This document shows, in pieces, positions 1-45,553 of a stretch of 64,000 nt of DNA (position 1 is its first letter; each line of letters starts with the position of its first letter). The notes below the pieces were generated by a model. That model did not search any database and was not told where the DNA came from. It saw only the letters and a list, made by a program, of their open reading frames with translations. The DNA is from Panopea generosa (taxonomy: Eukaryota; Mollusca; Bivalvia; Adapedonta; Hiatellidae). Location: contig CM055900.1 in the NCBI GenBank assembly GCA_029582155.1, positions 124,001 to 188,000 on the forward strand, read 5' to 3'. Position numbers and translations under genes: made by a program.

Positions 1-104
1 GCCCTGCCCAGAGACACCAAGTTTTTGACCCTGTCTCATCTAGAAGACGGTCAACGAGTCTCGAGAAAATGTGCACACGCTCAGTGCGTTGGCTTGGCAG
101 CGAT

Positions 105-8428: not shown

Positions 8429-8743
8429 TCAGTACAACGGAGTCTGTCCAGAGACAAGATGATCATTTCCATCCTTGTATAAGTCTTCATACAGAGGTGG
8501 AGGTGATGAATATTGTCCTGTAGGTGGCGCTTGATTTTGGTCCTGCCTTCCATGTGATTGCATGTTTGTCGTTTGATTCGGATATTGTGCACTTAGTGGA
8601 TAATTGCCGTATCCTGGGTTTGATGTGTTGCTAGAATACACAGGTGGTTGTCCGCTGACATAGCTAGGCTGGTTCTGAGCGCCATAAACGACATGTGACT
8701 GTTGTCCGGCAGTATTTGCATTGTATACTACAGGTTGTGAACG
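8429..8743 (-). CDS. Gene A exon 5: PPxY cytoplasmic tail and stop
   Basis: The acceptor TTTTATCCACAG precedes CGTTCACAACC, entering in phase 0. The exon codes residues 251-354 and ends in ...GQTPLY and a TGA stop. It is rich in Tyr, Pro, Gln and Asn with repeated YxxP-like spacing, has two PPxY motifs, and an acidic YEDLYKD after the second. No basic or zinc motifs are seen. Confidence 0.85.
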   Translation of the reverse strand, partial: RSQPVVYNANTAGQQSHVVYGAQNQPSYVSGQPPVYSSNTSNPGYGNYPLSAQYPNQTTNMQSHGRQDQNQAPPTGQYSSPPPLYEDLYKDGNDHLVSGQTPLY

Positions 8744-11700
8744 CTGTGGATAAAATAACACCTGATTAATTATATATTAAACGACATAATCATGGATTAT
8801 TTTGAAGTATTCAACATACATATAATTATATTTGAACGTGTTTATAGTTATATATTGAGCATTTGTTTATCTTATTAAATAACATGTACCAAAACATGAA
8901 CCATCTCTATGCTTCACTTCAGATTTAGGCGCCAAAACCAATATGAATAGAATATTTGACAAACTGATATATACAACTGCGATATCCTAGTTCTTTTTTA
9001 TTTTGTGATCAAATATTTTAATTAATAATTTATCGAAACTTTTACACAACCTAAGCATAATTACATAAAATTGCACATGTACTATATTGTTTTATAACAT
9101 TTATAATAATCTTTATGTGTTATTAACTGGTTTCTTCAAATAAATAGTATCTGCAAGCATTGTATGTGCTTTATCCTGGACGGAGATTTACATAAACATG
9201 CTTTTAACCCAACACATTTTCTGTCTCTGTAGTATTCTAAGACTTCCAGTACATACAAATTACATGTTATTGTATAATACGTATAGATTTTTGAAATAAG
9301 ATGTCTTTAAACTGAATATAACTTATAGTGATTTTATGCATATACACGAAAGAAAAGCTTTGTAATGCCATGAAACGAAAAACGCCTATATGTTGTTAAA
9401 TTACCATCAAAGTAACTATATTCATTTTGTTTGTAACACGATAAATTGTGTTATGTATAATCATATATGAGGAGAAAAAGGAAAAAGGTAGAGTATAAAA
9501 GGCATACGACAATTTATTATTTTCTACTTTGTTCTGTTGAAGCCGGGCTTTATGTCAAAGGCACAACTTGCTTTTGTCGTCATGATAAATATTTGGAGAG
9601 GAAATCACTGCCAAAATGATCAAACGCGACAGGGCTACATAATTACTTACAGAAGGACGGTGGCTCTACTCAGAATTATTATGGGGTCTTTATCGACAAA
9701 TAAAACGGAATTTCATAAATAACATGACTTATGTTAAAAAGGCGTTAAACTGCGTGCATTCCATTTCAAACATGAGTGCAATGACCGTATCATTATAAGT
9801 TTAAAATGGAATACTGGCATATACTATATATTATCTGACCATATCATCAGGTCGAATAAATTGTTTCAAAATTGTTTACATAAAATTCGTGAGTTTGAAT
9901 CAAGATTGGTCCCAAATTTGACTTGAGAAAATTAAGCAGTTATTTGATGGTTCTAAAAAAAGGTTTTCCTCGGCCAATAAAATTGTATGTTTAGCACAAC
10001 CTGGAATCTCTTACTATGTTATTTCTCTTTATATGTCCACGTGTACAGCATTTGAATATTAGGAAAACGGTCACAATGAAAATGAACCCGGCCAGGCTTA
10101 CGCAAATGATCCACACGACATTTGCGGGCAAATCACACCCAGAGTCATCACCGCATGAATTGTAGCCTTTGCACTTGATATCATCGTCGATGCAGCGTCC
10201 ATTGTTACATTCAAAGTTATTGTTGGGGCAACTGGAGCCTGTTGATACAAGAGAAATGCATAAATGCGCACATGTACCAGTACGTAAATGAAGGTTTAAT
10301 TGTGACAAATTTGATGATCAGTGATAGTTAGATCATGATATTCTTTGTTTTACTGAAACTTACCTTGATAACAAGATACCAAATGACTCTTTAATACTTA
10401 ATGAGAACTTTGATATATTTTATAGAAAGGACCGTTCTAATCATGGAGGGGGGTGGGGGGATACTTGTTTATGTTTCAAATAGTGTTATTCATTTCAGGC
10501 GAAATGACTTTGAAATATTTTGTAACGAATCAATTTCGATAAATGTCAAAATCAAAAATGAAAATATACTATTAGGTGTGTTCTATAGACCCAAAACTGC
10601 AGATATAACGTTTTTCAATGACTTGAATGCAACTATTGAGAAAACATACGAAACTTCTAAAAATATCGTCCTATTAGGTGATTTTAATGAAAACCTTCTC
10701 AACTCATCATTCCATAACCTGAAAGATATATAAACCTTAAACTCACTTATAATACTATAAATGAGCCCACCAGAAATCTAGCCATTCTTGATCCAAGCAT
10801 TGTTCCATATGATGTGCCATAGAAATGCTGGTACTATGGAAGTTCCAGCTAACATAAGTGATCATAAAGCAACATACATAATATTACAATTCCCGTACGA
10901 GCTAAATTCTACATATAAAAAAAACAAATATGGTTATACAACAAAGCAAATTTTAATCTCCTTTATGATAAAGTTAAATCATATGATTGGGACTGCTTAA
11001 CAAATTACTCTATTAATGAAGCATGTGACAAGTTTACATATATATATATATTTATTGGAATGGTTAAAACTTGCATACCATCTAAATTAGTAACTGTTCG
11101 TCCAAACGACAGGCGTTGGTTCGATTCAGAAGTTAGAAAATATCTAAAAATAAGGGACAGACTAAAGAAAATTGCAATTTAATCAGGCAAGGCAAATGCT
11201 TGGTATAAATAAAAAACATAAAAAAATATCGATTTCTACAAAACCATCCAACAACATTTCAATTAATGGACATCCATCATCATATCTGCAAAACCTTAAA
11301 TAGCAAACAATTTTTCTTGCATGGTATTCTGTGACATATCGAAGGTTTTTGTTTGTGTTTGGCATCAAGGGCTCTTATTCAAACTTAAAGAAATTGGCAT
11401 AAATGGTACAATACTAAATTGGTTATCAAGTTATCTGAAACACAGATCTCAACGTGTTGATAAACAATCATCCGAATCCACTCGTAAGTTTATAAATGCA
11501 GGTGTTTCCCAAGGGTCTGTCCTTGGACTTCTATTATTTCAAATAAATGTTAACGATATCGCTGATTAACTAGGTTGTATGCGGACGATAGTTCCTTTTA
11601 TTATTCTGCAACTTCTACCCAGGATCTTGAAGGTATCATAAACTATGATCTTGATGTTATATCTAAATAGTCTAAGCAATGGATGGTGAATTTTAATCCA

Positions 11701-13182
11701 ATGGCGCAATGTTCTTGTCTTTAAGAAAAACCTGACAGACTACTTAATATTATATTTGAAAATACTTCTTTACAAATTGTTAATTCTCATAAACATCTTG
11801 GTGTTACTTTAAGCCATGGTGGTAAGTGGTTAACACATATTGAAAGCATATTACATTTTGCTTCCAAGACAATTCACATTATGAGACGTTTGAAATTCAC
11901 TATTGAAAGAAATGCACTCAATCAAATGTACATATCGTATGTACATCCAATTCTAGAGTATTCCTCATTGGTTTGGGATGGTTGCATAGTGCACCTCACA
12001 GACTCAATAGAAAAACTAAAAAACGAAGCAGCACGAATTGTTACTGGACTTACCCAATCAGTATCTATTCAAAAACTGTATAATGAATGTGAATGGGAAC
12101 CGCTTAAAAAGAGAAGTGAAATTCAAAAATATTACCTTATTTAATGCATATCATTCAAACATTCAAAGTTATATAAATGATCTTTTCCCGCCTCTAGTTG
12201 GTGCAACAACTGATTACCCACTTGGAAACAGAGATATCTATACTACTCCATACTGTAGAACAGAGATAATGCGAAAGTCACCGTTCTGTGAGTGTCAAGA
12301 GGTTATAGAAGATGCTGAACAATACTTCTTTAAATGGCCTAGATATAGCAATCAAAGACTCATCTTGCATAACAGCCATTTATTATCAATCTACTATTGA
12401 GTGGAAGTGAAACTATATCTATAGAATGAATGAATGAATGAATAGGGTTTTACGGCGTACCAACACATTATAGGTTATTCGACGCCAACAGGAAGGAAGG
12501 TTCCAGGTTCACTCTACATGTACAAAAACAACAAATTAACATACAGATTTAAAAAAAATAGACCAGCAAATGAATATGCAGAATGAACCTAGAACCTTGA
12601 TACCTGCAGAACTGCAGAGTTTCAGCAAATTATATCGTGTTACTCAAATTGTCGCTTCTTACGACATGCATGAGCCACAGTGGTCCTATTCTTGCCATCA
12701 CTCATATGGCTCTCTGAAACCACACGTGGGTTCATTATTTAATCACAATGATGAACATGACAAAAATGATAAAATGAACATGATACCCATTCGGAGGATT
12801 CCTACCCCTCTGTAGAGATCGGCAGTGATTCTATTCTTAGCCGGAACCACACGGGCTTTATATCTACAGAAGATAACTATTGTAGATGCTGTCCCTAACT
12901 TTATTAAAGATGCCCATATATTTTAATATAATAATAATAATATGGATAATAATGATAAAAATAATAATTACAATAATAATAATCATAATAATAATGATTA
13001 TAAATAATAAATGAGTTTAAATATATTATATACTAATTTAGAAATATACACTCTTTGTGTATATATATCCTGTATATATGTCCTGTCCAAACACAAAGTT
13101 ATGCTATCTGAGAATGCCTGTCATAAAGGGAGTCAGGAAAATATAATCATATACTTCTTACTATTTTCTTTTATCTGCTTAT

Positions 13183-13234
<52 letters not shown>

Positions 13235-16200
13235 ACTCTTTCTTCCTCTCACTCAATCACCAACTGTATGTTTATAATTGTTTATATTAGCATAAACATG
13301 TAATTTGTTTTGTTACACACTGTAAATTTGTTACTTGTAGGGGGAGGTCCGAATGTAAGTTTGAAGAACTTGTGGCCCAACCCAATTTCAAAATATTTGA
13401 AATGAATATGTTTAAACTAAACTGAACATTACTACTAAAACATTACCGTTCATTTTACTACGTTTGACTCCATCACATACACAGTAAATATTTAGCCTAA
13501 TTGTCTATCAATCCATATTACTTTGATTTGATTTTTTAAAAATTCCGTTACGTTACGAACATATGTTATCTCTGCTTTCTATTAAATCAAATGTTGTTTA
13601 GGTTAAAGAGATATTTAAAGTTTATTACTTTATGAATGCTGAAATGGTGGCTTAAAATCACACCGGACGTGACGTAGATAACTACGGCGTAGGCTCAAAC
13701 AATTACTTGGCATATCGTTTGGTGGCTGGTCAGGACCCCTTATATGCCTACAGACATCAAGCATGATAACGTTGTAAGTTGATGTTCTATTTTTAATTTA
13801 ACATTACGTTAACGTTGAACATAATGGAATGCACATGCTGTTTCTTCTATAGATTACTCTATTAAATACTTAACAGTATTGATATATAAAGTAATATTTT
13901 TTTTTTATCTATTAATCATGCACATAGAAAAATGTATAAATAAATAGCAATGTTTAAATTCGTTTATTTTTTCGGCTTACGCTTTCATCAGGTAATTTTG
14001 TATTTAGGTAAGCATATATAAATGAAGGCGGAAGCCGAAAATTTGAAAAAAGGTTAGACATTGTTATTTATCTATATTCTTCCCTACGCATGATAAAAGT
14101 TATAAAATACGAAGTATTTAATTATGCTATGAAAAATGCTCACCCTCCTGATAGGCAGTGAATATCATAGAAAAGGCATTGTAGTGGTAATTTCTGCTAC
14201 TTTGTGTAAATTTTATTTTCAGCTTTCTGTTGACAATTGTAAACACGCCCGGTGGTATCGATCCGCACACTTGTCCTTGGAGCCCTGTTACAAATATAGA
14301 CAAATGTCAAGTATCTACATTGATGTAATTCTCACTTTAAATTTAACGAAATGTATATCGTATGTCAATACAAACTCTTTAATTTCACTCTTAAACACTT
14401 AAACATGATTAAACATGTATATTGCAAATAAAATTATAGTACAGCAGTGAAATATAAGTAAAGATTATTTATCGTTTACGTGATCTGTTCTCACAATCAA
14501 TGATATTTTACTATTTTGGAGCAACGACCATTTAGCGCAGCGATGAAATATGAATAAGCATGAGGCCAAAGAGGTCCTGAATAGCTCTAATAAATAAATA
14601 TCGACAAAGTGCTTTTTGTTTTCTAAGTTCTCCATAAATTGCGCCACATTGTGTATGACGGTCGCAAATTTAAACCCGACTTCCACAAACCATTAAGGGG
14701 ACACCAACATGTTAAATATCTAAGGCCTAGGCCTTATTTTTAGTCGAATCACTCTTGACTTTATTCGAAATCGCAAATTTGGTTAAGTTTGAAAAATAAG
14801 TGGGAGTATACTATCACATCTGCACGATGAAATCATGATGTGATGGCTAAAAATTTGACTACAGGGAACCGAAATGACTTCAACAAAAAATTCAGAGGAC
14901 CACCGTGCAATGATATATGTAAACTATCCAATGTTTAAGTCTTGAATTACCAGAGAAAAAGTTTCATTTAAAATGTGTTTATAAACCATGTTGAGGGGTT
15001 CATTAATGGTCAAATCACGTTGGTTCTAGTGATATAACTGCTGTTGAAGTTTGGTAAAAAATCATTGAAAAATGGGAATGCAATCGTGTTTACAAGAAAA
15101 ATGTTAACAGAAGGACGCCTGAAGCCTGAGGATGGACGACAGAAAATTAACCATGACATCAGTTCTGCTGACCTTTAGCCAGTAGAGCTAAACAACAGAA
15201 CTATTAGGATTGCAAATTAAATAAAAAAAACAACTTATGTGAGTCGATAAAAATATTACCTTTTCTTGACCAGCAGCACTTACCGTTAATTTGACCCTTA
15301 TGATCTCCATCAAAAAACTCCAAATAGCCATCTGAACATGGCAAGTCAAAGCCGTCAAAATAGAACATGAGGTGATTCCAGGTAATCCATGTCTCTACTG
15401 TCACTTCACACACGTTACTTGGCCTATTGTGGAAGGGGTATGTATCATGTCGATTAAACGACTGCGGAGTATTAAGAGTCAGTTGTCCCTGCTGTATGCC
15501 TTGAAGAATCATGCTAATCTCACCGTTGCAATAGTTTTGCATTTCATCTAAAATGATAAATAAAAAATGGAATTGATTTGCTGGTGTTTTTTTATCAATG
15601 ACCTGTAACCAGACAGATGGAAGGGTAGATGTACCAGAACAATGATATAGTATCATGTTATGTGTTATAACCCAATGCTTTAATATGAGACTCTGAAATG
15701 AAATGAAAAATGAGCTGTTTTCTTATTTATATAGGACATAATTAATTATAAAAATGGACAGACGGCAAAGTCAAAATAGTGTTTATTCTTTGCGTTAAAA
15801 AGGATAATAACAGACAAAACTGAGATAGCTTTATGTCTCACTTTAGAAAACCTCCCTTACATGACGTTAGTAATACTTTTACGCTCAAGAAAATAGAGCT
15901 GTGTAAAGCGGTTGGTCATTTTTTTATGAAAATGCATACATTTGTCACATTTCTTTTTGCATATGAACACATTGGAATATGTACATGACTTCCGCCAAGT
16001 TTGGACGACATTGGGTACTATTTGATGAAGATATAACAGTTTAAAGATAAATGGGCAGAAAAGTAAAAATATGAAAGGGTGCCATTAAACCAACGAAATT
16101 GTAAAAAAAACAATATGGTCAACATTTCAATTGGACCAACAGAGGACATCCTATGAGAACAAGTCACTTGCAGAACCATTGACAATGTATCCAGTGTTCC

Positions 16201-19200
16201 AGAAGTGTATTTCTCTATATGAAGAACAGGACAAATTAGTTGTTGTGTGAGACGTTCAAGAACCTGATCATTTTCGGTAAACGCTTGGAGGAAACTGCAT
16301 CATTGTGATTCAGATTTACTTTCGTTTTTAAAATATATCGATGTCGAAGTGAAATACTGTATATGAGACCTTTAAATAAAAAAACAGATTTTTTTTTGTG
16401 AAACATTGATGTTTTTGAGTAAAATAGAGAAGCTGTCACACATGCAAAACACATGCAAAACGAAATTTGAAGATTAAACAATAAAACAAATAGGATAAAG
16501 TCAGTTTGTAAACTATTCTCGCGACAAGTATTTCTCATTACGATAATATTCTATATATTTATTTAAATCAGCATTGTCGTAAAGAACCTGGATTTAACAA
16601 CCGTCGGAATGTGCTTAGCAGCCCAGCAATATGTATCCATATTATGTTGCATTTTCATTCATTGATTTATTTCTTTGTATCAAAGTTACTTTCATGCACA
16701 CTTTACTTTCATTTGCTTTTTAATTTTTTTTAAAATAAACAAAATAGTATAAAAATTTAATATATGCCTAATAAATACCTCAACTGGTAAGATAACTATT
16801 CATAGTTGATAACGAATCTAATGCATGTATTCAAGTATGTTATTCATTTGTATATTGAAAAAGGGGTCATGGTTAGTGTCAGTGATATGCAAATTATTAT
16901 TGGGTGCCTACAAACATTAACATGTATTTGTTATATATATAAAAAAGTCAAATATATAGTTTTGTTAGAAGTAGAGCATTATTTTTAGATAAACAACTTT
17001 TTATTAATAGTATGGGCATGTATTTAGACAATGTTTGCACATTTAATAATTCAAAAATGGATATGCAGTCACATAGATAAACCATATGAGACTATAAAAT
17101 TACATTTTCAAAGTATTTATTCTTCTATAATTATTTTTACTAAGGTACACTGTCTAATATTTTGGGCATTTTTTTTGAGTAGTCCAAATATCTTATGCAT
17201 GTGCGATTACTACCTTATTTGGTACATGAATTCGAAAACAGTTGCGCGATGAATTGAAAAGGCGTATTTATTTAGAAATGGTAGAAGTTTGTTCGACAAT
17301 GTTTTGAGTCATTAACCATGACAATTTCTACTTTTTAAGGTCTCACTAACATATGATAAAATCATTTAGAACGATTCAGATTTAAATGATTTTAACAATT
17401 CATTGCATGAAAATAAACATGTATTTGATGATATTTGTGATAAATTATTACAAAACGAAATTGATATTAACACATGTGTAAATAATTTATCTAGTATTAT
17501 ATATGATATTTCTTTTAAAACAAATGGGAGAACATTTAAAATAAATTCAAAACATAAAATAAAAAAATCTCCATGGTTTAATGAAACTTGTCGAAATGCC
17601 AAAAAACAATTTCTAAATGATAAAAGGGTCTTTAAATCTAACAAAAATGAAGATAATAGATTATTATTTTTGAATAGTAGAAGGGAGATAAAACTGACCC
17701 CAGTAATTTTTGAGGAATTACTCTTGTAAATATAATCTCGAAAATATTTTCATTGGTTTTACGGAATAGAATTAATCGCTGGTGCGAATCTGAAAATGTA
17801 TTTAACGCTTCACAATTTGACTTCAGGGATAAACGAAGTACAGCTGATAGTCTTCATTCAATTATTCAAAAGATTTTAGCTAATAAATCCAAACCAAAGT
17901 CATTCATTGACTACGAAAAAAGCTTTTGACACCGTTATTAGGGATTCCCTCTGGGTTAAACTTATACAATCAGGATTAAACTGTAAAATGGTTAAAATCA
18001 TTAAATGTATTTATGAAAATATTAAATCTTGTGTAAAAATTCCGTCTAACAGTAATTTATCGGAATTCTTCGATGTTACGCTTGGTTTAAAGCAAGGGGA
18101 GCCACTCTCGCCTCTTTTATTTATACTTTTTATTAATGATATTCAGTACAGTATTGACTTTCAAGGTTTGTCTGAGAATGATCTAAATCAACTGTCTATA
18201 TACATGATTTTATTTGCCGATGACATAGCGCTATTCACTACTGACTCAAAAAGTTTACAGACTCAGCTTAATGGAATATCAAACTATTCGCGTAAATGGG
18301 GTCTCAAAATAAATGTTAATAAAACAAAAATATGTATCTTCGAGAAAAGAAAACAAATTAACTTTGTTTTTTTTGTTGACGGGGAACCTATTGAAGTTGT
18401 TGACACGTTTTGTTATTTAGGTATAAAATTCACTCACACGGGTAATATGACACACGCTGTGAACGCGTTATCTGAACAAGCATTAAAGGCTTATAACAAC
18501 TTATTATCTGTTTGTGATAGACTTAATCTCGACATTAAAACCAAGTTATCCCTTTTTGATTCGATGGTGGTACCTATTATCTTATATGGGGCGGAAGTCT
18601 GGGGTATCTATGGTTTCAAGGAAGTGGATAAAATTCATATTAAATTCTGCAAACGTATTTTAGGTGTTCGTCAGCAAACCTCAAATCTAGCTGTATTAGG
18701 GGAACTAGGAAAATATCCACTGTCAATTATAGCTAAAGAGAGAGCATTAAAATTCTGGACTAAGATTTTGAAAAGCCCAATTCTATTATATATAGATCTT
18801 TTATTGATCAATGTGAATCTATCACTGGTAAATGGTGGGCGAGTAATGTGAAGGAATATTTGGATAGACTAGGATTTGGTGAACTATGGTTAAACTTTAA
18901 TACAGACGTAAATTATCTACCCATGTTTAGACAAAGAATACGTGATCAGTATATCCAGAATTGGAATACTGGCATTAAAGAATTGCCTAAATTGGAATAT
19001 TTTAGGAAATTCAAGAAAAAGTTTATTTTTGAAGACTATTTAGATGTTATAAAAAATAATGCCATTAGAAAACAGTTAAGGTGCCTTAGATTAATCTCCC
19101 ACGATTTAGAAATTGAGTTTGGAAGATTTAATAATATAGATAGAGAAAATAGGCTATGTAAATTATGTTCCATGAAAGTTGTTGAAACTGAATATCATTT

Positions 19201-22200
19201 CTTACTATGTTGCCCAAGATACCATAGCATCAGAATATTATATTTAAATAGTTCATCTTGGCCTACAGTTCAGAAATTTTCAAGTATTATGTCAAATAAA
19301 AACAAGAAAAATATTTTAAAAATAGGAAAATATGAATCTGAAGCTTTTAAGATAAGAAAACTAGCACTAGAACAAGTAAATAATATTTGATAATGAAACT
19401 ACTTTACAATCCCTATATAATGTAACTGTTTCTTATACTCAATATGTTTATAGCTTAGTACATAACTTGTATGTGAATGATATTCATGATTTTGTTGTGT
19501 ATTGTGTCTTGGCCATATTTATTTAAAAACTTTGTAAATGGCCAAAGGCAAATGTTTGCCGAAATTGCAATAAAATTTGAAAAAATTTGAAACTAAAGAA
19601 TATACATTCTTACATGACGTAAGCAAGATTCTTACGCTCAAGAAAATAGAGCTGTCCATAGTGCTGTTTTGCATTATTTTGTTAAAAATGCATAAAATTG
19701 TCATATTTCTTTGCGCCTATGTCAACATTAGAACATTTTTCATGATTTCTGCTGCAAATTTGGATGACATTGGGTACTGTTTAATGAAGCTATAACTAAA
19801 AATGCGTAGTGATAAAATGCAACAATTGGACATAATAGTAAAATATTATGGGGTGTCGTCACATACTGGAATATTTAAGACATTTCGCAAGAGTTATCCG
19901 AAAATTGCCCTAGCGCAGTTTGGTGATATTGGAGATGAATCTAATTACTTTCCTTAGATCGCGATAAAACATACAGATATCGTTCCACTCTGACACAAAT
20001 ATCAAGTAGGCGTGACGTGTTATATATGCCATGGGTATAATATATTTATCATTGATTATTTTGTGTTACTATAAAGAAATAAAATTATTACGGTTATTGG
20101 TTTACTGTTACATAAACTTATATTTGAAAGGGCTAAATCAATCAACACAGAGACTGATGCCGGGCGAGGATTCGAATTCACGAATTACTATCTGAGTTAA
20201 CAGGACAATTGCACTGATGTTCAAATGATATTTTAACATTTATGTTGTTGTTTTTTTTTAAATAAAATTATAACGGCTATATAATTATATAAAATTGTGT
20301 TTGAAACAAAATCTTAATATAAGCGCATGTGTTTCTAATAAAGCCTAAAATGATACTTGACCATAATTCGTTTTTAACAACTTCTTTTAAGTACCTCGTG
20401 TTACAATATCTTAAGATTATGTTGTTACAACAGATTGATATCTTTTTTATACCACTTCAATATACGAGAGGATCATTTTTTGAAAAATTAAACTTAAAAC
20501 TGAACGTAACTTAAAACAAAATAATAGAAGTTGTTTAAAGAATTATTACCAACACATTTAATTAATAAAGCAATCGCATAACTGAGAAATACACAAATTT
20601 GTAGAAAATCGCCAATATTTCTTTTTTTCACGCTCTATTATCTGTTTAAAAAAAATTAATTTATTATCATTTTATCTGAATATCGATGTTAAATCAAAAA
20701 GCTCATTTAAAAAAAATGAACAACAAACTTGTGTTGAAATATTATTACATTCTAGAAGATTATATTATTACCCCAATAAAATAACATGTTTTGCCTCCGG
20801 GCCAGGGGTAGTTGGTTATTAAGGTCATAAATAAACACTGGACTATCGCATTGTTTGAGACTTGAAATACAGACAGAGAGCTCTGATTTTTTTGTACAAG
20901 GATCATTAGATTTGTATATTATTTTACTGACCTTAGGACAACGTTTAAATTCAATATGCTGTAATACTTAACATTTGATAATGATATATCGTTACTAACT
21001 TGTATTAAGTTAGATACACGATATCAATGCAGTGACTATAAAACGAACATAAACATGCACAAAATGAAACATGTTCGCAGTCAAAATATTTATTTCAGAA
21101 CGGATGATCCAACTTTAGTAATATCAGTACCATTATTTTTTCTTAAAATAATTAAATAATTTTATTTTTTGTGCCGCAAAACATCATTCATTTCATTATT
21201 TTATTTTCGTTCCATCTATGTACCCAGTATATAACAATACATATACATGAACGTTTAAACTTGTACGTAGCCATTCTAAAAGAATTATAAGGTACGTTTT
21301 AAAACATAAATTATGCATATCATCAATACAAAGCACTATTATTTGACATTGTAAAGCTCTACTATAATCTGCAATAAACCAACTTTTGAATTAAAAAGCT
21401 AAAGAAGAAAAAAAGCACTATTGTGCATATTTAAAAATATCTTTAAAAAAACTATTATCTCCTTTGGTCAGATCAATTGAGAACTGATAAGCAATATTTT
21501 CATATATATGTAGAGATTAATTTTTAAATCAAGTAATACGAAACAATGATATGCTAATTATGCTGTATTGATATAATTATCAACCAATTACATTATTAAA
21601 TATCTTTGCTCAAATTATATGCCTCGTTTAAAGCATTATTGTTATTTAGTCACTGGTTTTGTCTTTAAGAATCAAGTGATATAAATTAATTATTCGAATT
21701 ATACATACTCTTCAATCAATTTTCATTCTATGACAGTGAATTATTTCATAACAAAGACAGTTAATTTAAAACATAAATTTGTGCGAAAAAAAAAATAAAC
21801 CATTAATTTATGTTTTGAAATATAAAAGAAATGTACTTGAATTTGAAGTGTTTTTAAGATAATTTTGTTAAAATATAAAGTTAAAATAAATCTATGCTTT
21901 AGAATATAAATAAAATACATAAATAAAAAACACACTTTAAACTACACATTACTTGCAATATCACTATGTGTTTATAAACATTTCGGACTGACCAACATCT
22001 GCATAAAGACGGCTGATATAGCGACATACATTGGATGCAAAAATACGCTGTATTGGGTACAGTCGTACGCTGTATAGGGTATACAAAAAATAAATCAGAA
22101 TTACATTTTATTTCATTTTCAAATCAAAATGGAAGCAAGATGCAATTATCATATTTTATATCTAAATATCATCGTAAAGAGAATTTTATTTGCAATAAAC

Positions 22201-24932: not shown

Positions 24933-25165
24933 TTTGTATACACTTAATATTTTGTGTTATTTCTTATACACAATAACACTAAACCTGATTTAATACCTGA
25001 AATATGTTTTAAAATATTTCGACCGATCCCGTTTACGTTTAAGTACATTATCAATATAATGCAATGCTCTCCTTGGATTCTAATGTATGCCACCATGTTA
25101 TATGTGTATTATCACACCAAGATGATTTGCCGGTCTAATATCGGGCACTGTGGGTGTTTAAGGTA
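24933..25165 (-). promoter_or_regulatory. Upstream region of gene A conserved with gene B
   Basis: Sequence upstream of the ATG matches the region upstream of gene B in short collinear blocks: TTTTAAGTACA-like, then GATTTGCCGGTCTAATATCG against GATATGTCGGTCTAACATCG, then GGGTGTTTA. It probably holds the promoter and 5' UTR. No clear TATA box or initiator was identified. Confidence 0.5.
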
Positions 25166-25265
25166 ATAAAGTGCCTTTCTCAACGGACATGTGATTTTTG
25201 TTTGTAATTTTAAGTTTTCTTTCGTTTTAAAACATTTAAAGATAAATTATGTCATTCTCGAAGCG

Positions 25266-31422: not shown

Positions 31423-31644
31423 TTAAATTTGGTCTTGTTCCACAGATGTTTGATTATTTTGCATTTGATTTGCGACACTTGATTGCGGGTAACCTGGATA
31501 AATTCCAGTGTATCCAGGGTTTGATGTGTTGCCAGGATACGCAGGTGTTTGACAAGTGACATAATTAGGCTGGTTCTGTGCACCATAAACGACATATGGT
31601 TGCTGCCCGCCTGGATTTGCATTGTATGCAACATGCTGCGTGCG
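31423..31644 (-). CDS. Gene B exon 5: shortened tail
   Basis: The acceptor TTTCTCTCCACAG precedes CGCACGCAGC, phase 0. It aligns with gene A exon 5 through NANPGGQQPYVVYGAQNQ and GNTSNPGY. Then GACCAAAATCAAGCG in gene A corresponds to GACCAAATTTAAGCG here, so a Gln codon is TAA. Past this stop the DNA still matches gene A (GCGCCACCTGCAGGACAAAA, TCATCACCTCCGCC) until a second TAA replaces the Leu codon of PPLY. Confidence 0.85.
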   Translation of the reverse strand, partial: RTQHVAYNANPGGQQPYVVYGAQNQPNYVTCQTPAYPGNTSNPGYTGIYPGYPQSSVANQMQNNQTSVEQDQI

Positions 31645-34600: not shown

Positions 34601-37600
34601 AACTGTGGCAGTCAATACTATGTGATAAAAGCTCGCACTAGCATCACACAATGTAACCATGTCAAGTGTGTTACTGAAGGTAATAAATTGTGGCAGTCAA
34701 TATCATGTGATAAAAGCACGCATTGGCATCACACAATGTAAACATGTCAAGTGATGTGTTACTGCATGTAATAAACTGTGGCAGTCAATATTATGTGATA
34801 AAAGCACGCACTGGCATCACACAATGTAACCATGTCAAGTTGGTTACTGAATGTAATAAACTGTTGCAGTCAATATCATGTGATAAAAGCACGCATTGGC
34901 ATCACACAATGTAACCATATTAAGTGTGTTACTGAAGGTAATAAACTGTGGCAGTCAATATTATGTGATAAAAGCTCGCATTAGCATCACACAATGTAAC
35001 CATGTCAAGTGTGTTACTGCAGGTAGTAAACTGTGGCAGTCGTTATTATGTAATAAAAGCACGCATTGGTACCACAAAATATATCCTTTTCAAGTGTGTT
35101 ACTACAGGTAATAAACTATGGCAGTCAGCATTGTGTGATAAAAGCACGCACTGGCATCACACAATATTACCTTGTCAAGATAATGTAGATAACGAAGTAT
35201 GCTGCAAACATTATAAGAGCGATAAAAGGACTCTTGATGCTATTATCTTACATTGAAACAAGACGATGTTTATAGAATAATTGACTTAAGATAATTATAA
35301 ATGCACAGGTCAGGTGGTCAGTACTTTAAAGTTACGTGTGTGTTTCTACATTGAACAAACAGTTAAAATGATGAATATAATTTATACTTATATGCTTAGA
35401 ATATACATATTCATATAAAAATAACTAAAAAAAAGTTAAACAAGCATAGTAATATGCATATAAATGTTGCAAATGACACACATGGGCGTATGAAATAACA
35501 ACATTTGCTATAAACCAGGGGCTGGCTACATAAATGACGAATTGTATCAGTTTTACCTAAATACATTTCCAAATCTTAGTTAACTTTCTTTATAGCTCGA
35601 GTTAGGGGTATTAAATAGACTCACCTGTCTGATATGCAGTGAATATCAAAGAGAAAGCGTTGGAGCGATAATTGTAATTAAGTCTAGTAAATTTCACTTT
35701 CAGCTTTCTGTTTATCGTTACAAACACATCAGTTCGCAACGATCCGCATATATGGCCTTCAAGTCCTGTAACATATATATTGGCAAACATAAGAAGAAAT
35801 ATGTCCATGACACGTAAGCAATACTACAACAGTCATTATACATAAACAGCAAAGCAACCTACTACTGGAGAATTTTGACCTAGTTAACATATGCGTCTTC
35901 TCTCGCTCTTCACCAATCTATACATCAAAAAATGAGAGTGTTGCTAAAAATAGCCCTAAAAATTTCAATCTCATAATGTATATGATTTCTTATATATAAA
36001 GCGTACGATGGTACTTATGGGCAAGTTTCTATCAAACATATCGATAAACATGTAGTTAGTCGAAATCATTCAAATATTTGCATATTCATTATTATTATAG
36101 TACATGTTCTGTCCTACTACGTGTATAAATAAGAGCAATATCAGGTATAACTTAACAGTTGAATTTGCTCTATGATAAAAATAAATGCACACAGAAATAT
36201 ACTGAAAGTATTTTTTCCAAAGGCAGGAATGTCTCTGTTCATATATATGCACAACTGGTGGATTTACTCACTTTTGTAAAATAAAAACAATGCAGTTACA
36301 CGTCTTAACTTTTTAATGTCCTCAAATGCTCTAAATTACAACAGTCTGTTGAAATTCAATAGATTTCATTTTAAACAATTGACGACTTGTGGCACTATAT
36401 GATATGTCAGCTTTCACCCTATCTTAAGGCCAGTGACGTTTTTTCGCAGAATATATATACAATTTCAGCACAATAGTGGGGTTATTGTCACTAAAATTGT
36501 AGTGGCGGCGCGATGGTAACAAAAACACAGCCATTGCGCGAGTACATAGTACAAAATAACGATTACAGATATCTTAAACTGCGCAAGCGATACTGACCGT
36601 TGATTTGATCTCTAAAATCTCCATCAAAAAACTCCAAATAGCCGTCTGAACATGGCAGGTTAAAGCTTTCAAAATAGAACATGAGGTGGTCCCAGGTATA
36701 CCATGTCTCGATTGTCACATCGCATCTGTTTCTTGAGTTTTTTTGACCAAACTGGTATATATTGTCATGAGAGAATGTCCGTGGTGTATTGAGTGACAGC
36801 TGCCCCTGTTTTATGTCATCATAGATCATACTAATTTTGTCATCGCAGTTGTTCTTCATTTCATCTGAAACAACAAATAAGAACGATATTGGCCTTAAAA
36901 CAACTATATACGAATTGTTAAAAGTCACGGTAGTCTACTGGAAAGAGTGTTGTCCGCTCCTGCCAGAGGTTGCGGGTTCGATGCCCTGGTTCTACCCAGG
37001 AAGCGGACTTGAGAACGGTTCATATAAGCTCCGAGCTTTCATCGCAATCGAGCTAAAATAAATTAGTATAAACTAAAAGTAACGGATACAACGACGTTTT
37101 CTACTTTTCAATCAACTTAAAAACAGTACCAAACTTCAAACGTTAATCGATATGTTATATATCTTTGTAAGTTAATCGATTACAGATGATTTACATAAAC
37201 TACCTAAGTAACTTGTACCTTGGAATGCCTCGATCTCTATATTGACACTTGTTATCTGCTGTTATGTTGACTTTTTGCCAACCGCGGCGCTTATTTGGGT
37301 TTAACCGGCTATATCAAAAATGTTCTTATCATGTTTTAGACAGCGAATAACATATAAAGCTAAATATTTGAAATAAAATAGCTTTCATATCTCGCAAAAT
37401 GACAACATTTGTACGATTGTCAGTAATTAGAATTTATTTGCGAATTCCAAATTCATTACATTGTATTGTATGCACTGAGAGAGTGTATGATATTGTACTG
37501 TATACAATGATGTGTATGGCATTGTGTGGTGTGTATAACATTGTGCTGTATACACTGGTGTGTATGACGTTATGTATGACATTCTACTGTATACATTGGT

Positions 37601-40600
37601 GTGTATGACATTGTGCTTTATACACTGGTGTGTATGCCATTGTACTGTTTACAATGGTGTGTATTACATAGTGCTGTATACACTGGTGTGCATGACGTTA
37701 TGTATGATTTTGTACTGTATACATTGTATGACATTGTATTGTATACATTGGTGTGTATGACATTGTGCTGTATACATTGATGTGTATGACATTGTACTTT
37801 ATACATTAGTATGTATGACATTGTGCTGTATACACTGGTGTGTATGTCGTTATGTATGACATTGTACTGTATACATTGGTGTGTATGACATTTTGCTGTA
37901 TACACTGGTGTGTATGGCGTTATGTATGACATTGTGCTGTATACACTGGTGTGTATTACGTCATGTTTCACATTGTACTGTATACATTGGTGTGTATGAC
38001 ATTGAGATGTATACACTGGTGTGTATGACATTGTAATGTATACACTGGTGTGTATGATATTGTTCTGTATACACTGGTGTGCATGACGTTATGTATGACA
38101 TTGTACTGTATACACTGGTGTTTATGGCTTTGTGAGGTATTTACTGGTGTACATGACATTGCAATGTATACACTGGTGTGTATTGCATCGTACTGTATAC
38201 ACCGGTGCGCACGACACTGTACTGTATACACTGGCGTATATGACATTGTATTGTATACACTGGTGTGTATGTCATTGTACTATATACACTGATGTGTATG
38301 ACATTGTATTATATATACTGGTGTGGATGGCATTGTACTCTATATACTGGTGTGCATTACATTGTACTCTATACACTCGTGTGTATGACATTGTACTATA
38401 TACATTGGTGTGTATGACATTGTACTATATACGCGGGTGTGTATGGTATTGTACTATAAACACTGGTGTGTATGACATTGTACTTTATATACTGATGTGT
38501 TTGACATTGTACTATATACACTGTTGTGTATGACATTGTACTATATACACTGGTTTGTATGGTATGACATTGTAATGTATACAGTGACCTCATATATGAC
38601 ATTGTAATGTATACAGTGACCTCATGTATGACATTTTCTATATACAGTGATCGTATGTATGGCATTGTACTTTAAACTTGGACCTTATGTATGACATGTA
38701 CTGTATACAGCGACCTTTTGTATAACATTGTACTGTTTACGATGACCTTATAATGGCATTGTTTTGTATAAATTGACATATTTGACATTGTAATGTGTAC
38801 AGTGAACTTATAGATGGCTTTGTGTTGCATGCAGTGACATTATGTATTGCATTGTTTTGCATGCAGTGAGTTTATGTATGATATTGTTCTGCATGCAGTG
38901 ACCTTATGCATGACATTGTATTATATGCGGTGATCTTACACATCAGATCACAGACAGAGATATGTCGACATCAGATTACAGACAGTGGTATGGAGACCAC
39001 AGATCACAGACAGCAGTACGGATACTACAGATTACATATAGCGATTTAGATACCACAGATCACAGACAATGGTTCAAAGGCAACAGTATGGAGTCACACG
39101 CAGATCACACGCATCGGTATAGAGATCACATACAATTAATCACAAACAGTGGTATTGAGACCACATATCACATACTTTGTTTTATTTGATTAATTTGTGA
39201 TAATCTATATGTCATAAATACAAAGATACATCAGGCACATTAACATACACTAACACAGAAGCAATAACATGTATTTTAAATAATATATTAAACTAATTAA
39301 CAATAAACTTATTTCTAATGGGGTCCAGAAACTACATATCACAGGCAGCAGTACGGAGACAATATATCACAGACAGCGGTATTGAGACCACATATCACAG
39401 ACAGCCGTAAAGAGACCATATAACACACAGAGCAGTATTGAAACCACATATCACAGACAGCGGTATGGAGACCACAGATCACAGACAGCGGTATGGAGAC
39501 CACAGATCACAGACAGCGGTATGGAGACCACAGATCACAGACAGCAGTATGGAGACCACATATAACAGACAGCGGTATGGAGACCAAAGATCACAGACAG
39601 CAGTATGGAAACCACAGATCACAGACAGCGGTATGGAGACCACATATAACAGACAGCGGTATGGAGACCACAGATCACAGGCAGCGGTATGGAGACCATA
39701 GACCACAGCTTTACAGAGACAACTGATCACATACAGTAGTATGGATACCATCGACCACAGCTGTATAGACACCTCAGATCACAGACAGCGGTATGCAGAC
39801 CACATATCACAGACAGCGGTATGGAGACAACATACTACAGGCAGCAGTATACATACCACATATCACAGAAAGCAGTATGGAGACCATAGATCACAGACAG
39901 CGGTATGGAGACAACATATCAAAGAGAGCAGTTTGGAGACAACATATCACAGACAGTGGTATTGAGACCACATATCACAGACAGCGGTATGGAGACCACA
40001 GATCACAGACAGCGGTATGGAGACCACAGATCATAGACAGCTGTATGGAGACCACAGATCACAGACAGCGGTATGGAGACGACAGATCACAGACAGCAGT
40101 ATGATGACCACATATAACAGATAGCGGTATGGAGACCACAGATCACAGACAGCAGTATGGAAACCACAGATCACAGACAGCGGTATGGAGACCACATATA
40201 ACAGACAGCGGTATGGAGACCACAGATCCAAACAGCGGTATGGAGACCATAGACCACAGCTTTACAGAGACCACTGATCACATACAGCGGTATGGAGACC
40301 ACATATCACAGACAGCGGTACGGAGATCACAGATCACAGCCAGCGGTATTGAGACCACAGATCATAGACAGCGGTATGGAGACCACAGATCATAGACAGC
40401 AGTATGGAGACCACATATAACAGACAGCGGTATGGAGACCACAGATCACAGCCAGCGGTATGGAACCATAGACCACAGCTTTACAGAGACCACTGATCAC
40501 ATTCAGCGGTATGGAGACCATAGACCACAGCTGTATGGACACCTCAGATCACAGACAGCCGTATAGAGACCACATATCACAGACAGCAGTATGGAGACAA

Positions 40601-43600
40601 CATACTACAGGCAGCAGTATACATACCACATATCACAGAAAGCAGTATGGAGACCACCTATCACAGACAGCGGTATGAAGACCACATATAACAGACAGCA
40701 GTATGGAAACCACAGATCACAGACAGCGGTATGGAGACCATAGACCACAGCTTTACAGAGACCACTGATCACATACAGCGGTATGGAGACCATAGACCAC
40801 AGCTGTATGGACACCTCAGATCACAGACAGCCGTATAGAGACCACATATCACAGACAGCGGTTTATCGACAACATACTACAGGCAGCAGTATACATACCA
40901 CATATCACAGAAAGCAGTATGGAGACCACATATCACAGACAGCGGTATGGAGACCATAGATCACAGACAGCGGTATGGAGACCACAGATCCGGAGAGCGG
41001 TATGGAGACCACATATCAAAGAGAGCAGTTTGGAGACAACATATCACAGACAGAGGTATGGAGACCACATATCACAGACAGCGGTATAGAGACCACAGAT
41101 CGAAGACAGCGGTATGGAAATCACAGATCACAGATCACAGAAGCGGTATGGAGACCACAGATCACAGACAGCGGTATTGAGACCACAGATCACAGACAGC
41201 AGTATGGAGACCACATATAACAGACAGCGGTATGGAGACCACAGATCACAGACAGCAGTATGGAAACCACAGATCACGGACAGCAGTATGGAGACCACAT
41301 ATAACAGACAGCGGTATGGAGACCACAGATCACAGACAGCGGTATGGAGACCATAGATCACAGCTGTATGGACACCTCAGATCACAGACAGCCGTATAGA
41401 GACCACATATCACAGACACCGGTATATCGACAACATACTATAGGCAGCAGTATACATACCACATATCGCAGAAAGCAGTATGGAGACCACATATCACAGA
41501 CAGATGTATGGAGACCATAGATCACAGACAGCGGTATGGAGACCACAGATCCGGAGAGCGGTATGGAGACCACATATCAAAGAGAGCAGTTTGGAGACAA
41601 CATATCACAGACAGTGGTATGGAGACCACATATCATAGACAGCAGTATGGAGACAACAGATCGAAGACAGCGGTATGGAAATCACAGATCACAGATCACA
41701 GACAGCGGTATAGAGACCACAGATCACAGACAGCGGTATGGAGACCACAGATCACAGACAGCAGTATGGAGACCACATATAACAGACAGCGGTATGGAAA
41801 CCACAGATCACAGACAGCAGTATGGAAACCACAGATCACAGACAGCAGTATGGAGACCACATATAACAGACAGCGGTATGGAAACCACAGATCACAGACA
41901 GCGGTATGGAGACCATAGACCACAGCTTTACAGAGACCACTGATCACATACAGCGGTATGGGGACCATATACCACAGCTGTATGGACACCTCAGATCACA
42001 GACAGCCGTATAGAGACCACATATCACAGACAGCAGTATGTAGAAAACATACTACAGACAGCGGTATACATACCACATATCACAGAAAGCAGTATGGAGA
42101 CCACATATCACAGACAGCGGTATGGAGACCATAGATCACAGACTGCGGTATGGAGACCACAGATCCGGACAGCGGTATGGAGACCACATATCAAAGAGAG
42201 CAGTTTGGAGACAACATATCACAGACAGTGGTATTGAGACCACATATCACATACATTTTTTATTTGATTAATTTGTGATAATCTATATGTCATAAATACA
42301 AAGATACATCAGGCACATTAACATACACTAACACAGAAGCAATAACATGTATTTTAAATAATATATTAAACTAGTTAACAATAAACTTATTTCTAATGGG
42401 GTCCAGAAACTACATATCACAGGCAGCAGTACGGAGACCATATATCACAGACAGCGGTATTGAGACCACATATCACAGACAGCCGTAAAGAGACAATATA
42501 ACACACAGAGCGGTATTGAGACCACATATCACAGACAGCGGTATGGAGACCACATATAACAGACAGCGGTATGGAGACCACAGATCAGAGACAGCGGTAT
42601 GGAGACCACAGATTACAGACAGCGGTATGGAGACCACAGATCACAGACAGCAGTATGAAGACCACATATAACAGACAGCGGTATGGAGACCACAGATCAC
42701 AGACAGCAGTATGGAAACCACAGATCACAGACAGCGGTATGGAGACCTTATATAACAGACAGCGGTATGGAGACCACAGATCACAAACAGCGGTATGGAA
42801 ACCATAGACCACAGCTTTACAGAGACCACTGATCACATTCAGCGGTATGGAGACCATAGACCACAGCTGTATGGACACCTCAGATCACAGACAGCCGTAT
42901 AGAGACCACATATCACAGACAGCGGTATGGAGACAACATACTACAGGCAGCGGTATACATACCACATATCACAGAAAGCAGTATGGAGACATAATATCAC
43001 ATACAGCGGTATGGAGACCATAGATCACAGACAGCGGTATGGAGACCACAGATCCGGACAGCGGTATGGAGACCACATATCAAAGAGAGCAGTTTGGATA
43101 CAACATATCACAGACAGTGGTATTGAGACCACATATCACAGACAGCGGTATGGAGACCACAGATCACAGACAGTGGTATGGAGACCACAGATCATAGACA
43201 GCGGTATAGAGACCACAGATCACAGACAGCGGTATGGAGACCATAAACCACAGCTGTATACACATTTCAGATCACAGACAGCCGTATAGAGACCACATAT
43301 CACAGACAGCGGTATGGAGTCAATATACTACAGGCAGCGGTATACATACCACATATCACGGAAAGCAGTATGGAGACCACATATCACAGACAGCGGTATG
43401 GAGACCATAGATCACAGACAGCGGTATGGAGACAACATACTACAGGCAGCGGTATGGAGACCACATATCACGGAAAGCTGTATGGAGACCACATATCACA
43501 GACAGCGGTATGGAGACCATAGATCACAGACAGCGGTATGGAGACCACAGATCCGGACAGCGGCATGGAGCCCACATATCAAAGAGAATGGTTTGGAGAC

Positions 43601-45553
43601 AACATATCACAGACAATGGTATGGAGACCACATATCACAGACAGCGGTATGGAGTCTACAGATCACAGACAGCGGTATGAACACCACATATCACAGACAG
43701 CTGTATTTCTTTTAAATTTAAGATCACACATATATGTATTCTTACATACTTAAGATCACAGATAGAGTAGACTTACAGCTGTCACAGAATATTCGTTCAC
43801 ACTCGAGATCACAGTTAGATGTATTAGTACGTACCTTATATATCAGACAAATATATTCATTTATAGGCGAGAGCAAAAACAGCTGTATTGGTTCGAATTC
43901 CGATATAATAGACCGACAGCTGTCATAGAATATATATTACTTCAAACACGAGACCAGACAGCTGAATTCGTTCACAGCATTTGCACAGTATTCCTTCACA
44001 CCCTCAATTATAGACAAGTATAATTGTTCTTACTTGCGAGCACAGGAAGCTATATTCGTCGACACCCTAAATCACAGACAAGTATAGTCGTACTCACTTG
44101 CGATCACAGGCAGCTATATTCGTTGACACCCTTAATCACAGACAAGTGTAGTCGTTCTCACTTGCGATCACAGGTAGCTATAGTCGTTGATACCATAAAT
44201 CACAGACAAGTATAGTCGTACTTACTTGCGATCATAGGCAGCTATATTCGTTGACACCCTTAATCACAGACAAGTATTGTCGTTCTTACTTGCGATCACA
44301 TGTAGCTATATTCGTTGACACCCTAAATCACAGACAAGTATAGTCGTTCTCACTTGCGATCACGGGCAGCTATATTCGTTCATACCATAGATCGCAAAGA
44401 AGTATAATCGTTCTCACTTGCGATCACACGTTATTATATTCGTTGACACCCTTAATCACAGACAAGTATAGTCGTTCTCACTTGCGATTACAGGCAGCTT
44501 TATTCGTTCATACAACAGATCACAGACAAGTATAGTCGTTCTCACTTGCGATCACGGGTAGCTTTATTCGTTGACACCCTAAATCACAGACAAGTATAGT
44601 CGTACTCACTTGCGATCACAGGCAGCTATATTCGTTGACACCCTAAATCACAGACAAGTGTAGTCGTACTAACTTGGGATCACATGTAACTTTATTCGTT
44701 GACACACTTAATCACAGACAAATATAGTCGTTCTCATTGCGAACACAGGCAGCTTTATTCGTTCATACAACAGATCACAGACAAGTATAGTCGTTCTCAC
44801 TTGCGATCACAGGTAGCTTTATTCGTTGACACCCTTAATCACAGACAAGTATAGTCGTACTCACTTGCGATCACAGGCAGCTATATTCGTTGACACCCTA
44901 AATCACAGACAAGTGTAGTCGTACTAACTTGGGATCACATGTAACTTTATTCGTTGACACACTTAATCACAGACAAATATAGTCGTTCTCATTGCGAACA
45001 CAGGCAGATATATTCGTTCATACCATAGATCACAGACAAGTATAATCGTTCTCATTTGCGATCACAGGTACATGTAGCTATATTCGTTTTCACCCTAAAT
45101 CACAGACAAGCATAATCGTTGACACTTGACGTCACGAAAATGTCTTTTAAACGCCATGTTAATGTCTATATTCCAACGCCTCATTTTATATTTTTGAAGC
45201 TGTCCGTTTGCCCCACTATGGGTCAACGAGTTTTTAACATAGTTGAGTATATTTGTAAATCCAATCTTTGCTACTAGGCATACTCGTTACATATGGTTAC
45301 AATAATGTTAAATATCAAAATCATATTAAACTTATATTACTAATACAAATAGTACAGATAAGAAGGGAGTTTGATAGAGATATAATTCCTTGACGAGACG
45401 TGTCAATAAAACAGGTACATATTTATACTTACAGAATTTTGTTGCCGATACAACAGTGCAAGAATACAAAACCGACACCGTGACAACAAACAGGGAGATC
45501 TTTTGAAGGTTTATAACTCTTGTCCGACGTTCAAACACATATGTGTCCTCCAT
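31423..45553 (-). CDS. Gene B: CUB-LDLa membrane protein, truncated tail (5 exons)
   Basis: Joining 45553-45433, 36864-36598, 35765-35625, 32684-32452 and 31644-31423 gives an unbroken frame of 327 residues. Splice phases are the same as in gene A and two exons (1 and 3) have identical lengths. It has a signal peptide, a CUB domain (NCDDKISMI, RCDVTIETW, DGYLEFFDGDF, HICGSLRTDV, FSLIFTAYQT), an LDLa module with six cysteines (FECDNGRCIDDD, RCNGYNSCGDDSGC), a transmembrane helix at about 219-246 and a basic YIRGQKRRKN. The tail is Tyr/Pro/Gln-rich, but the first PPxY position reads TPAY and the second lies beyond a premature TAA. The extracellular part looks intact, so it may be a functional receptor or decoy with altered signalling, or an early pseudogene. 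Confidence 0.82.
32452..32684 (-). CDS. Gene B exon 4: LDLa module and transmembrane helix
   Basis: The acceptor TGTACAACCAG enters in phase 1 and the donor ATG/GTAAGA leaves in phase 0. It is 9 bp longer than in gene A because of extra residues between LDLa and membrane (CRTDLSVQ). Six LDLa cysteines are kept, followed by a hydrophobic helix of about 27 residues and a strongly basic stop-transfer. Confidence 0.9.
33230..33512. repeat. 86 bp tandem repeat, left part
   Basis: About 3.5 copies of a unit with GTTACTGCAGGTAATAAACT, GTGGCAGTCAATATTATGTG, ATAAAAGCACGCACTGGCAT and CACACAATGTAACCATGTCA. The array breaks off at about 33512 inside a unit and resumes at 34500. It lies in gene B intron 3. 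Confidence 0.9.
33513..34499. mobile_element. Insertion of about 1 kb inside the 86 bp array
   Basis: Unique sequence separates two parts of one array. It begins TGTGAAATAATTTATTTTCG, TTAAATTTCGTGGTTTCC and ends before TGACTGCAGGTAATAAACTG. The TTCGTGG-type motif is, from memory, common in dispersed non-autonomous repeats of molluscs. No coding domain, clear terminal inverted repeat or target duplication was established by eye. Confidence 0.5.
34500..35185. repeat. 86 bp tandem repeat, right part
   Basis: About eight copies at a spacing of 84-88 bp, for example the TGTAACCATGTCAAG block near 34567, 34652, 34737 and 34825. Copies decay at the right end near 35185. Short open frames over it are by-products of the repeat. 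Confidence 0.93.
35625..35765 (-). CDS. Gene B exon 3: second half of the CUB domain
   Basis: The acceptor TATATGTTACAG and donor ACAG/GTGAGT are both phase 1; 141 bp. Codes GLEGHICGSLRTDVF, TINRKLKVKFTRLN and AFSLIFTAYQT. Gene A shares NRKLK.KFT and A.S.IFTAYQ. Confidence 0.9.
36598..36864 (-). CDS. Gene B exon 2: first half of the CUB domain
   Basis: The acceptor TTGTTTCAG and donor AACG/GTCAGT are both phase 1; one codon longer than in gene A. Codes EMKNNCDDKISMIYDDIKQG, QLSLNTPRTF, RCDVTIETWYTWDHLMFYF and DGYLEFFDGDFRDQING. The donor is GTCAGT rather than GTAAGT, a weaker but acceptable site. Confidence 0.9.
36930..37075 (+). mobile_element. tRNA-derived SINE, family 2, copy 2
   Basis: Box A-like GGTAGTCTACTGGAAAGAGT and a strong box B GGGTTCGATGCCC, then GAACGGTTCATATAAGCTCC, TTTCATCGCAATCGAGCTAA and a final AAATAAATTA. 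Body and tail match the 7258 copy. It lies in gene B intron 1. Confidence 0.65.
37455..38940. repeat. Minisatellite, 29 bp unit
   Basis: Tandem copies of TGTACTGTATACACTGGTGT plus GTATGACAT, about 50 in all. Variant units carry GACGTTATGTATGACAT. Copies decay rightward from about 38560 into GTACAGTGACCTTATGTATG forms. Open frames on both strands are a consequence of the unit. Confidence 0.95.
39183..39345. repeat. Non-repeat spacer in the 28 bp array, copy 1
   Basis: TATTTGATTAATTTGTGATA through ACTTATTTCTAATGGGGTCC recurs with almost no change 3078 bp downstream. It marks a 3.08 kb block duplicated within the array. Confidence 0.93.
42261..42420. repeat. Non-repeat spacer in the 28 bp array, copy 2
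   Basis: Second copy of the 39183-39345 spacer, differing by isolated bases (for example AACTAGTTAAC against AACTAATTAAC). Both copies are followed by the same irregular units (CAGCAGTACGGAGAC, then AGCCGTAAAGAGAC). Confidence 0.93.
43701..45115. repeat. Minisatellite, 64 bp unit, and transition zone
   Basis: From about 44020 a 64 bp unit repeats: AATCACAGACAAGTATAGTC, GTTCTCACTTGCGATCACAG, GCAGCTATATTCGTTGACAC, CCTT. There are about 17 copies. A 255 bp multimer is duplicated (the GTACTAACTTGGGATCACAT variant occurs at about 44665 and 44920). 43701-44020 is a diverged transition from the preceding array. The unit keeps the ATCACAGACA core of the 28 bp repeat. Confidence 0.93.
45433..45553 (-). 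CDS. Gene B exon 1: signal peptide
   Basis: An ATG at 45553-45551 opens MEDTYVFERRTRV and hydrophobic LQKISLFVVTVSVLYSCTVV, with donor CT/GTAAGT in phase 1. Length (121 bp), start and donor match gene A exon 1. Confidence 0.82.

Follow-up and report, generated by a model that had tools for sequence, protein, structure and literature searches.

Tandem genes for small CUB-LDLa membrane proteins in Panopea generosa: candidate NEDD4-coupled receptors, one with a truncated tail

The 64,000 bp stretch of the Panopea generosa genome analysed here (the window; contig CM055900.1, below called C7, positions 124001-188000) contains two genes, A (minus strand, 45553-31423, 327 amino acids) and B (minus strand, 24932-8429, 354 amino acids). 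We consider them to be tandem paralogues encoding small type I membrane proteins which, with a probability of about 0.6, would be NEDD4-coupled adaptor or endocytic receptors acting through a PY motif (PPxY) of the cytoplasmic tail, with A uncoupled. The membrane topology, the binding of a ligase, endocytosis and the role of A are what we infer from the sequence. The pair belongs to a larger family, located mostly on one chromosome.

Each gene consists of five exons separated by introns of phases 1, 1, 1 and 0, and exons 1 and 3 have the same length in both (121/267/141/233/222 nt in A and 121/264/141/224/315 nt in B). Exon 1, which contains the start codon and a probable signal peptide called by eye, is located at 45433-45553 in A, where it is followed by the donor GTAAGT, and at 24812-24932 in B. 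The remaining exons are also on the minus strand. The CUB is split over exon 2 (36598-36864 in A and 15284-15547 in B, both with Pfam matches) and exon 3 (35625-35765 and 14144-14284); exon 4 encodes the LDLa together with the transmembrane (TM) segment, taken as a hydrophobic stretch by inspection (32452-32684, with additional Pfam and PDB matches, and 10015-10238, with a Pfam match), and exon 5 the tail (31423-31644, ending in an early TAA codon, and 8429-8743, with PPPLYEDL near its end). Thus, the domain order in both proteins is signal peptide, one CUB, one LDLa, TM segment and a proline/tyrosine-rich tail. All eight introns are of the GT...AG type, with donors GTAAGT, GTCAGT, GTGAGT and GTAAGA in A and GTAAGT, GTAAGT, GTGAGC and GTAAGA in B. 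The two starts are 20.6 kb apart, and 6.5 kb separate the stop codon of A from exon 1 of B. The likeness of the genes is not due to chance, because the exons of A matched B in tblastn searches with E values from 1e-35 (exon 2) to 0.001 (exon 1), and the full A and B proteins found no match at 1e-3 in the reversed window. We regard the anatomy of the two genes as modelled as close to certain. The original prediction for this DNA had described two genes in the same orientation about 20 kb apart, with the exon number, phases and equal exon lengths given above, intact frames and splice sites, proteins of 354 and 327 residues, a six-cysteine LDLa, a four-cysteine CUB and a shared domain order, and the coordinates and the alignment bear this out. 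It overlooked that the tail of A is shorter through an in-frame TAA behind which B-like sequence continues.

The pair is the result of a whole-gene duplication that also took in the 5′ flank and the beginning of intron 1. A region of A alignable with B by blastn (45782-45318 in A and 25165-24697 in B, both minus strand; 68.6% over 477 columns, E 6e-41) spans about 230 bases 5′ of the start codon, exon 1 and 115 bases at the beginning of intron 1. Soon after exon 1, intron 1 of A contains a 64-bp tandem array of 17.8 copies, detected by a repeat scan (43989-45128), and blastn found a single stretch matching its unit in B at 24413-24494, likewise in intron 1 and not far from exon 1. A retrocopy origin of the pair is ruled out because all introns were retained and the 5′ flank and intron start can be aligned. 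Coding constraint on the pair is clear. Amino acid identity is 60% up to the stop codon of A (278 shared codons, without exon 1) and 58% over the whole; dN/dS is 0.26 when exon 1 is left out (NG86), and 0.29 (NG86) or 0.43 (YN00) over 320 codons, with about one synonymous change per site (0.73 by YN00).

The extracellular parts of A and B contain four cysteines in the CUB and six in the LDLa. The CUB is divergent. With the Pfam CUB model (cut-off 21.4 bits), B scored 26.6 bits, over the cut-off, and A 21.3 bits, just under it. With the LDLa model (cut-off 24.1 bits), A was over the cut-off (24.5 bits) and B (22.3 bits) was slightly under it, as were two further family members, C (23.4 bits) and D (21.0 bits), which are described below. 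All four proteins have the features of CUB-LDLa type I membrane proteins in the broad sense, that is, a CUB and a six-cysteine LDLa followed by one TM segment recognised by its hydrophobicity. The LDLa of A, B and C has a shortened spacing between the last two cysteines, with five residues between them (CGDDSGC). Moreover, most of the acidic residues that usually form the calcium site are missing from the LDLa, as judged from the canonical pattern and an LRP1 repeat, and we therefore expect calcium dependence of the domain to be weak or absent.

The proposal that these receptors have a single CUB is supported within limits. A homology search of intron 1 of both genes with the exons of A revealed no second CUB exon, and the 21 open reading frames of at least 50 amino acids in each of these introns showed no CUB-like pattern by eye, although small diverged exons could escape such inspection. 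A genome-wide search with PF00431 gave no CUB in the window, but only 150 of 265 candidates were scored and the CUBs of A and B themselves were also missed. Satellite DNA makes up most of intron 1 of A.

To place the pair in the genome we searched the assembly (1.47 Gb, 39 contigs), the only animal genome searched; at E<=1, B gave 59 matches, A gave 62 and an LDLa-TM exon taken from a relative gave 54. When matches within 30 kb were joined, at least 23 loci were obtained at E<=1e-3, 18 of them on C7, which holds 5.3% of the genome bases; joining within 100 kb gave 14 of 19 loci on C7. These counts are lower bounds, as only the best candidates were scored, and duplicated loci are not independent, so that a binomial value serves as a guide only. 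The third tandem copy, C, is complete and lies at C7:104413-93978, at a distance of 20 kb from the left end of the window and 28 kb from the last exon of B (C7:132429), with exons of 118/240/141/230/369 nt, phases 1, 1, 1 and 0, and 365 amino acids. D is located about 50 Mb away, at 50.04-50.06 Mb on C7, and is represented by exons 2-5 and an exon-1 match. It has no ATG where A, B and C have their start codon; translation perhaps starts at an inner methionine, and the gene may be damaged. Of the four genes, C and D are closest to each other (70% amino acid identity, dS 0.37, dN/dS 0.50). In a tree of 16 LDLa-TM exons, which are short and give low resolution, A-D formed a clade with a support of 98. 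Local duplication, as the original prediction had supposed, is supported by C and by D and many weaker relatives on the same chromosome, and C is a further tandem member beside the window of the kind that it had named as support. In a literature search for mollusc or bivalve CUB-LDLa receptors, none of the titles and starts of abstracts listed concerned this single-CUB family, which does not establish that the family is unpublished.

The WW domains of NEDD4-type ligases bind PPxY motifs, and such a motif was present at nine of the 12 loci whose tail, or tail candidate, could be read. The tail of B ends in ...SSPPPLYEDLYKD... (motif PPPLYEDL), that of C in ...SALPPSYGELTTE... (LPPSYGEL) and that of D in ...NVPPPSYEDATTS (PPPSYEDA). 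On C7, the tail at 4.2165 Mb contains PPPLYRDV, that at 4.2677 Mb PPPSYDDV and that at 11.407 Mb several PPxY motifs; the frames at 4.2165 and 4.2677 Mb are alike around the motif, by eye, and are therefore probably real tails. On C17, PPSYDEV is found at 49.985 Mb and PPRYSVV and PPRYSIV at 49.979 Mb, and PPAYDSI at 14.304 Mb on C11; at the C11 and C17 loci one open frame holds the LDLa, the TM segment and the PPxY. The usual form of the motif is PPxYxx followed by a hydrophobic residue. Tails of the kind found in PY-motif (WW-ligand) membrane adaptors thus occur in B, C and D and at six further loci, not in A. One PPxY alone is not striking; its recurrence across loci is. The sequence LPPIY at 4.0089 Mb on C7 occurs in an unlinked frame only and was not counted. 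The tail of B (8429-8743) together with its TM segment also gave a sub-threshold Pfam match to RCR (17.2 bits, cut-off 27.8), which we take to be fungal single-TM proteins that bind the NEDD4 homologue Rsp5 via PPxY.

In A, a TAA at 31425-31423 takes the place of a glutamine codon of B, so that the tail keeps its first 73 residues and loses the end with the PPxY. A non-coding remnant homologous to the coding tail of B lies behind this stop (31320-31422, minus strand, by alignment; by blastn to 31385). It reads APPAGQNYSSPPP, a stop and then YGIL (PPP-stop-YGIL), that is, PPxYxxL is present with a second TAA at its x. Loss of the motif in A is the derived state, because not only B, C and D but also more distant relatives have PPxY. 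A is not the sole member without the motif, since tail candidates at 12.107 Mb on C7 and 61.936 Mb on C6 also lack it. Numbers of specific changes in A and B were 18 and 36 with C as outgroup (chi2 6.0), and 23 and 29 with D as outgroup (chi2 0.7). A therefore evolves no faster than B, which suggests a receptor with a truncated tail and not an old pseudogene. This is no proof that A is functional, as a recent truncation leaves little time for decay. A may be a young pseudogene, or its allele in this assembly may be null, with the nonsense changes as the first step of decay. We consider this unlikely, though well worth keeping in mind: the terminal tail carries two in-frame stops, and the first may be recent, given that in the 39 or so bases just behind it A and B differ by only 3 substitutions and a 3-base indel (by eye), but in A all five exons and all four splice pairs are intact, as is the frame preceding the stop, and its rate of evolution is no higher than that of B. 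The A-B dN/dS of 0.26-0.43, depending on the method, likewise speaks against decay, although as an average over two branches it is compatible with a very recent one.

The reading of the family as NEDD4-coupled receptors has parallels in known proteins. The LRP10 tail has a PPxY and LRAD3 activates Itch via two PPxY motifs (PMC11315911, PMC5331069), the PY motifs of TMEPAI bind NEDD4-2 (PMC8508116), and in ENaC a PPPxY overlapping a YxxPhi motif is recognised by Nedd4-2, with C-terminal truncations causing Liddle syndrome (PMC7973139). In the most likely mechanism, the CUB-LDLa ectodomain of A and B would bind a partner, either another membrane protein or an extracellular ligand; in B, C and D the tail PPxY would then recruit a NEDD4-type HECT ligase via its WW domains, and the receptor or its partner would be ubiquitinated and taken off the surface. 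A would still bind a partner of this kind but would recruit no ligase, like ENaC freed from Nedd4-2 in Liddle truncations, and could be a stable or a competing receptor for the partner of B. That A is a functional, ligase-uncoupled form beside a coupled B is a tentative idea, which we rate as rather improbable. The same holds for the wider proposal of a chromosome-concentrated family, defined by a single CUB, a shortened LDLa and a NEDD4-type tail, in which tandem duplication and terminal nonsense changes would have turned A into an uncoupled paralogue.

None of the known families has the same domain counts. LRP10, LRP3 and LRP12 likewise combine CUB, LDLa and a TM segment, and the LRP10 tail is described as proline-rich with a PPxY; however, the three have two CUBs and three to five LDLa domains, whereas A and B have one of each. 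LDLRAD3 (LRAD3) is a short LDLa membrane protein with PPxY motifs, as in B, C and D, and a reported activator of Itch and Nedd4, but it has three LDLa domains and no CUB. TMEPAI/PMEPA1, a small membrane adaptor reported to engage NEDD4-2 through PY motifs, shares the principle of the tail alone, as its extracellular part is short, unlike that of A and B. Human LDLRAD2 is an LDLa membrane protein for which the passages available contain no mention of a CUB. LDLRAD2 may nevertheless have a CUB-like part, and the present family might be the counterpart of such a single-CUB LDLa protein of vertebrates. Altogether, the family would work like PY receptors of the LRP10/LRAD3 type and be Neto-like in its ectodomain, with domain counts that match none of them.

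Several observations weigh against this reading of the pair and of the family. Pfam recognises no CUB in C or D, though both CUB exons can be aligned with those of A and B. A CUB profile built from the four members matched cubilin (4e-4), neuropilin-2 (0.18) and seminal PSP-II (0.58), that is, weakly, and matches in the same range to myosin VI and a lamprey-type receptor (0.47-0.79) are presumably due to chance. Exon 1 is under little constraint between A and B (dN 0.41, dS 0.49 over 41 codons) while exons 2-5 are constrained; weak constraint is common for signal peptides. As to the tails, PPxY is missing in three of the 12, namely A and the candidates at 12.107 Mb on C7 and 61.936 Mb on C6. 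At two loci, 71.318 and 71.285 Mb, the frame of the LDLa and TM segment continues into a cysteine-rich stretch without PPxY; the two stretches are alike, and if they are tails the count becomes nine of 14. No convincing tail was found at 74.572 and 4.0089 Mb, which were left out of the 12, and the count also leaves out about 10 loci, among them those at 3.10, 4.286, 8.33, 9.11, 56.56, 64.61, 70.21 and 71.349 Mb and those on C9 and C14. Shuffled tails of B, C and D contained PPxYxx[VILMFA] in 2.8, 9.2 and 7.2% of 10,000 trials each, and this pattern was picked after the tails had been seen; a short motif is in any case weak evidence for ligase binding. Finally, all gene models are predictions from the genomic DNA of one assembly.

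Instead, the proteins might be auxiliary or clustering subunits of ion channels like Neto, SOL-2 and LEV-10, in which the CUB-LDLa part would do the work and the tail would be secondary. With a profile of A and B, NETO2 was the top match in the PDB (E 5e-6), colinear over the end of CUB2, the LDLa and the TM segment; the 43 PDB matches include neither LRP10 nor LRP12, so that the match may or may not be specific to NETO2. NETO1, NETO2, SOL-2 and Drosophila Neto are likewise type I membrane proteins with CUB and LDLa, and CUB-LDLa membrane proteins act as such auxiliary or clustering subunits in worm, fly and mouse (PMC9083331). However, A and B have one CUB, not two as in the Neto/SOL-2 group, or five, and most readable family members carry a PPxY in their tails, not the PDZ ligands described for NETO1/2 (PMC9083331). 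No tie of A or B to any channel was found, the SK channel-like frame at 56888-58300 being merely a neighbour. We therefore doubt this explanation; the sequence match gives some merit to the Neto comparison made in the original prediction, but the two CUBs and the type of tail do not fit. We are equally sceptical of an endocytic cargo receptor of the LDLR type, working through an NPxY-like signal, SNPGY, in the tail. A, B and C all have NPGY, which survives the truncation of A, but D reads NQNY. Furthermore, core members of the LDL receptor family have several LDLa domains together with EGF and beta-propeller modules; A and B have a single, shortened LDLa in which most acidic residues of the canonical calcium cage, according to the consensus, are missing, and no EGF or propeller domains appeared in Pfam scans of A-D.

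The frame at 56888-58300, on the minus strand and adjoining A, encodes 470 amino acids and matches SK potassium channels, Ion_trans_2 and, just under the cut-off, CaMBD. A 28-bp tandem array of about 158 copies (39334-43706) fills much of intron 1 of A, and strand asymmetry around it is strong (AT skew 0.375 at 40001-44000). Other arrays, with units of 29-145 bp, are located at 37458-38938, and about 7 kb of a satellite of about 200 bp occupies the left end of the window (1-7002). Frames resembling the reverse transcriptase of long interspersed nuclear elements were seen by eye at 17880-19390 (intron 1 of B), 10395-12400 (intron 3 of B) and 28866-29447. Outside the window, dozens of units of a 58-bp satellite (C7:12107654-12111119) lie directly upstream of the LDLa exon of the family member at 12.1 Mb. 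Each unit joins the end of the intron (TTTAG) to the beginning of the exon (GYCYTYEYECSNGRQF), and the satellite is thus an exon-derived array with many splice-acceptor-like ends. Dense CUB matches within about 100 kb on C1 (19.32-19.42 Mb) perhaps represent one very large multi-CUB gene or a cluster. A plasmid search, run as a check, found nothing.

CUB-LDLa membrane proteins and PPxY adaptors are each known separately, and both occur together in the two-CUB LRP10. In the present family a PPxY tail is joined to a minimal form with one CUB, and this form has multiplied mostly on one chromosome. If the proposed uncoupling of A is true, the pair would be a natural parallel to PY loss of the Liddle type, fixed between paralogues, and if A is expressed, A and B would provide a natural test of PY-dependent receptor removal without engineering.

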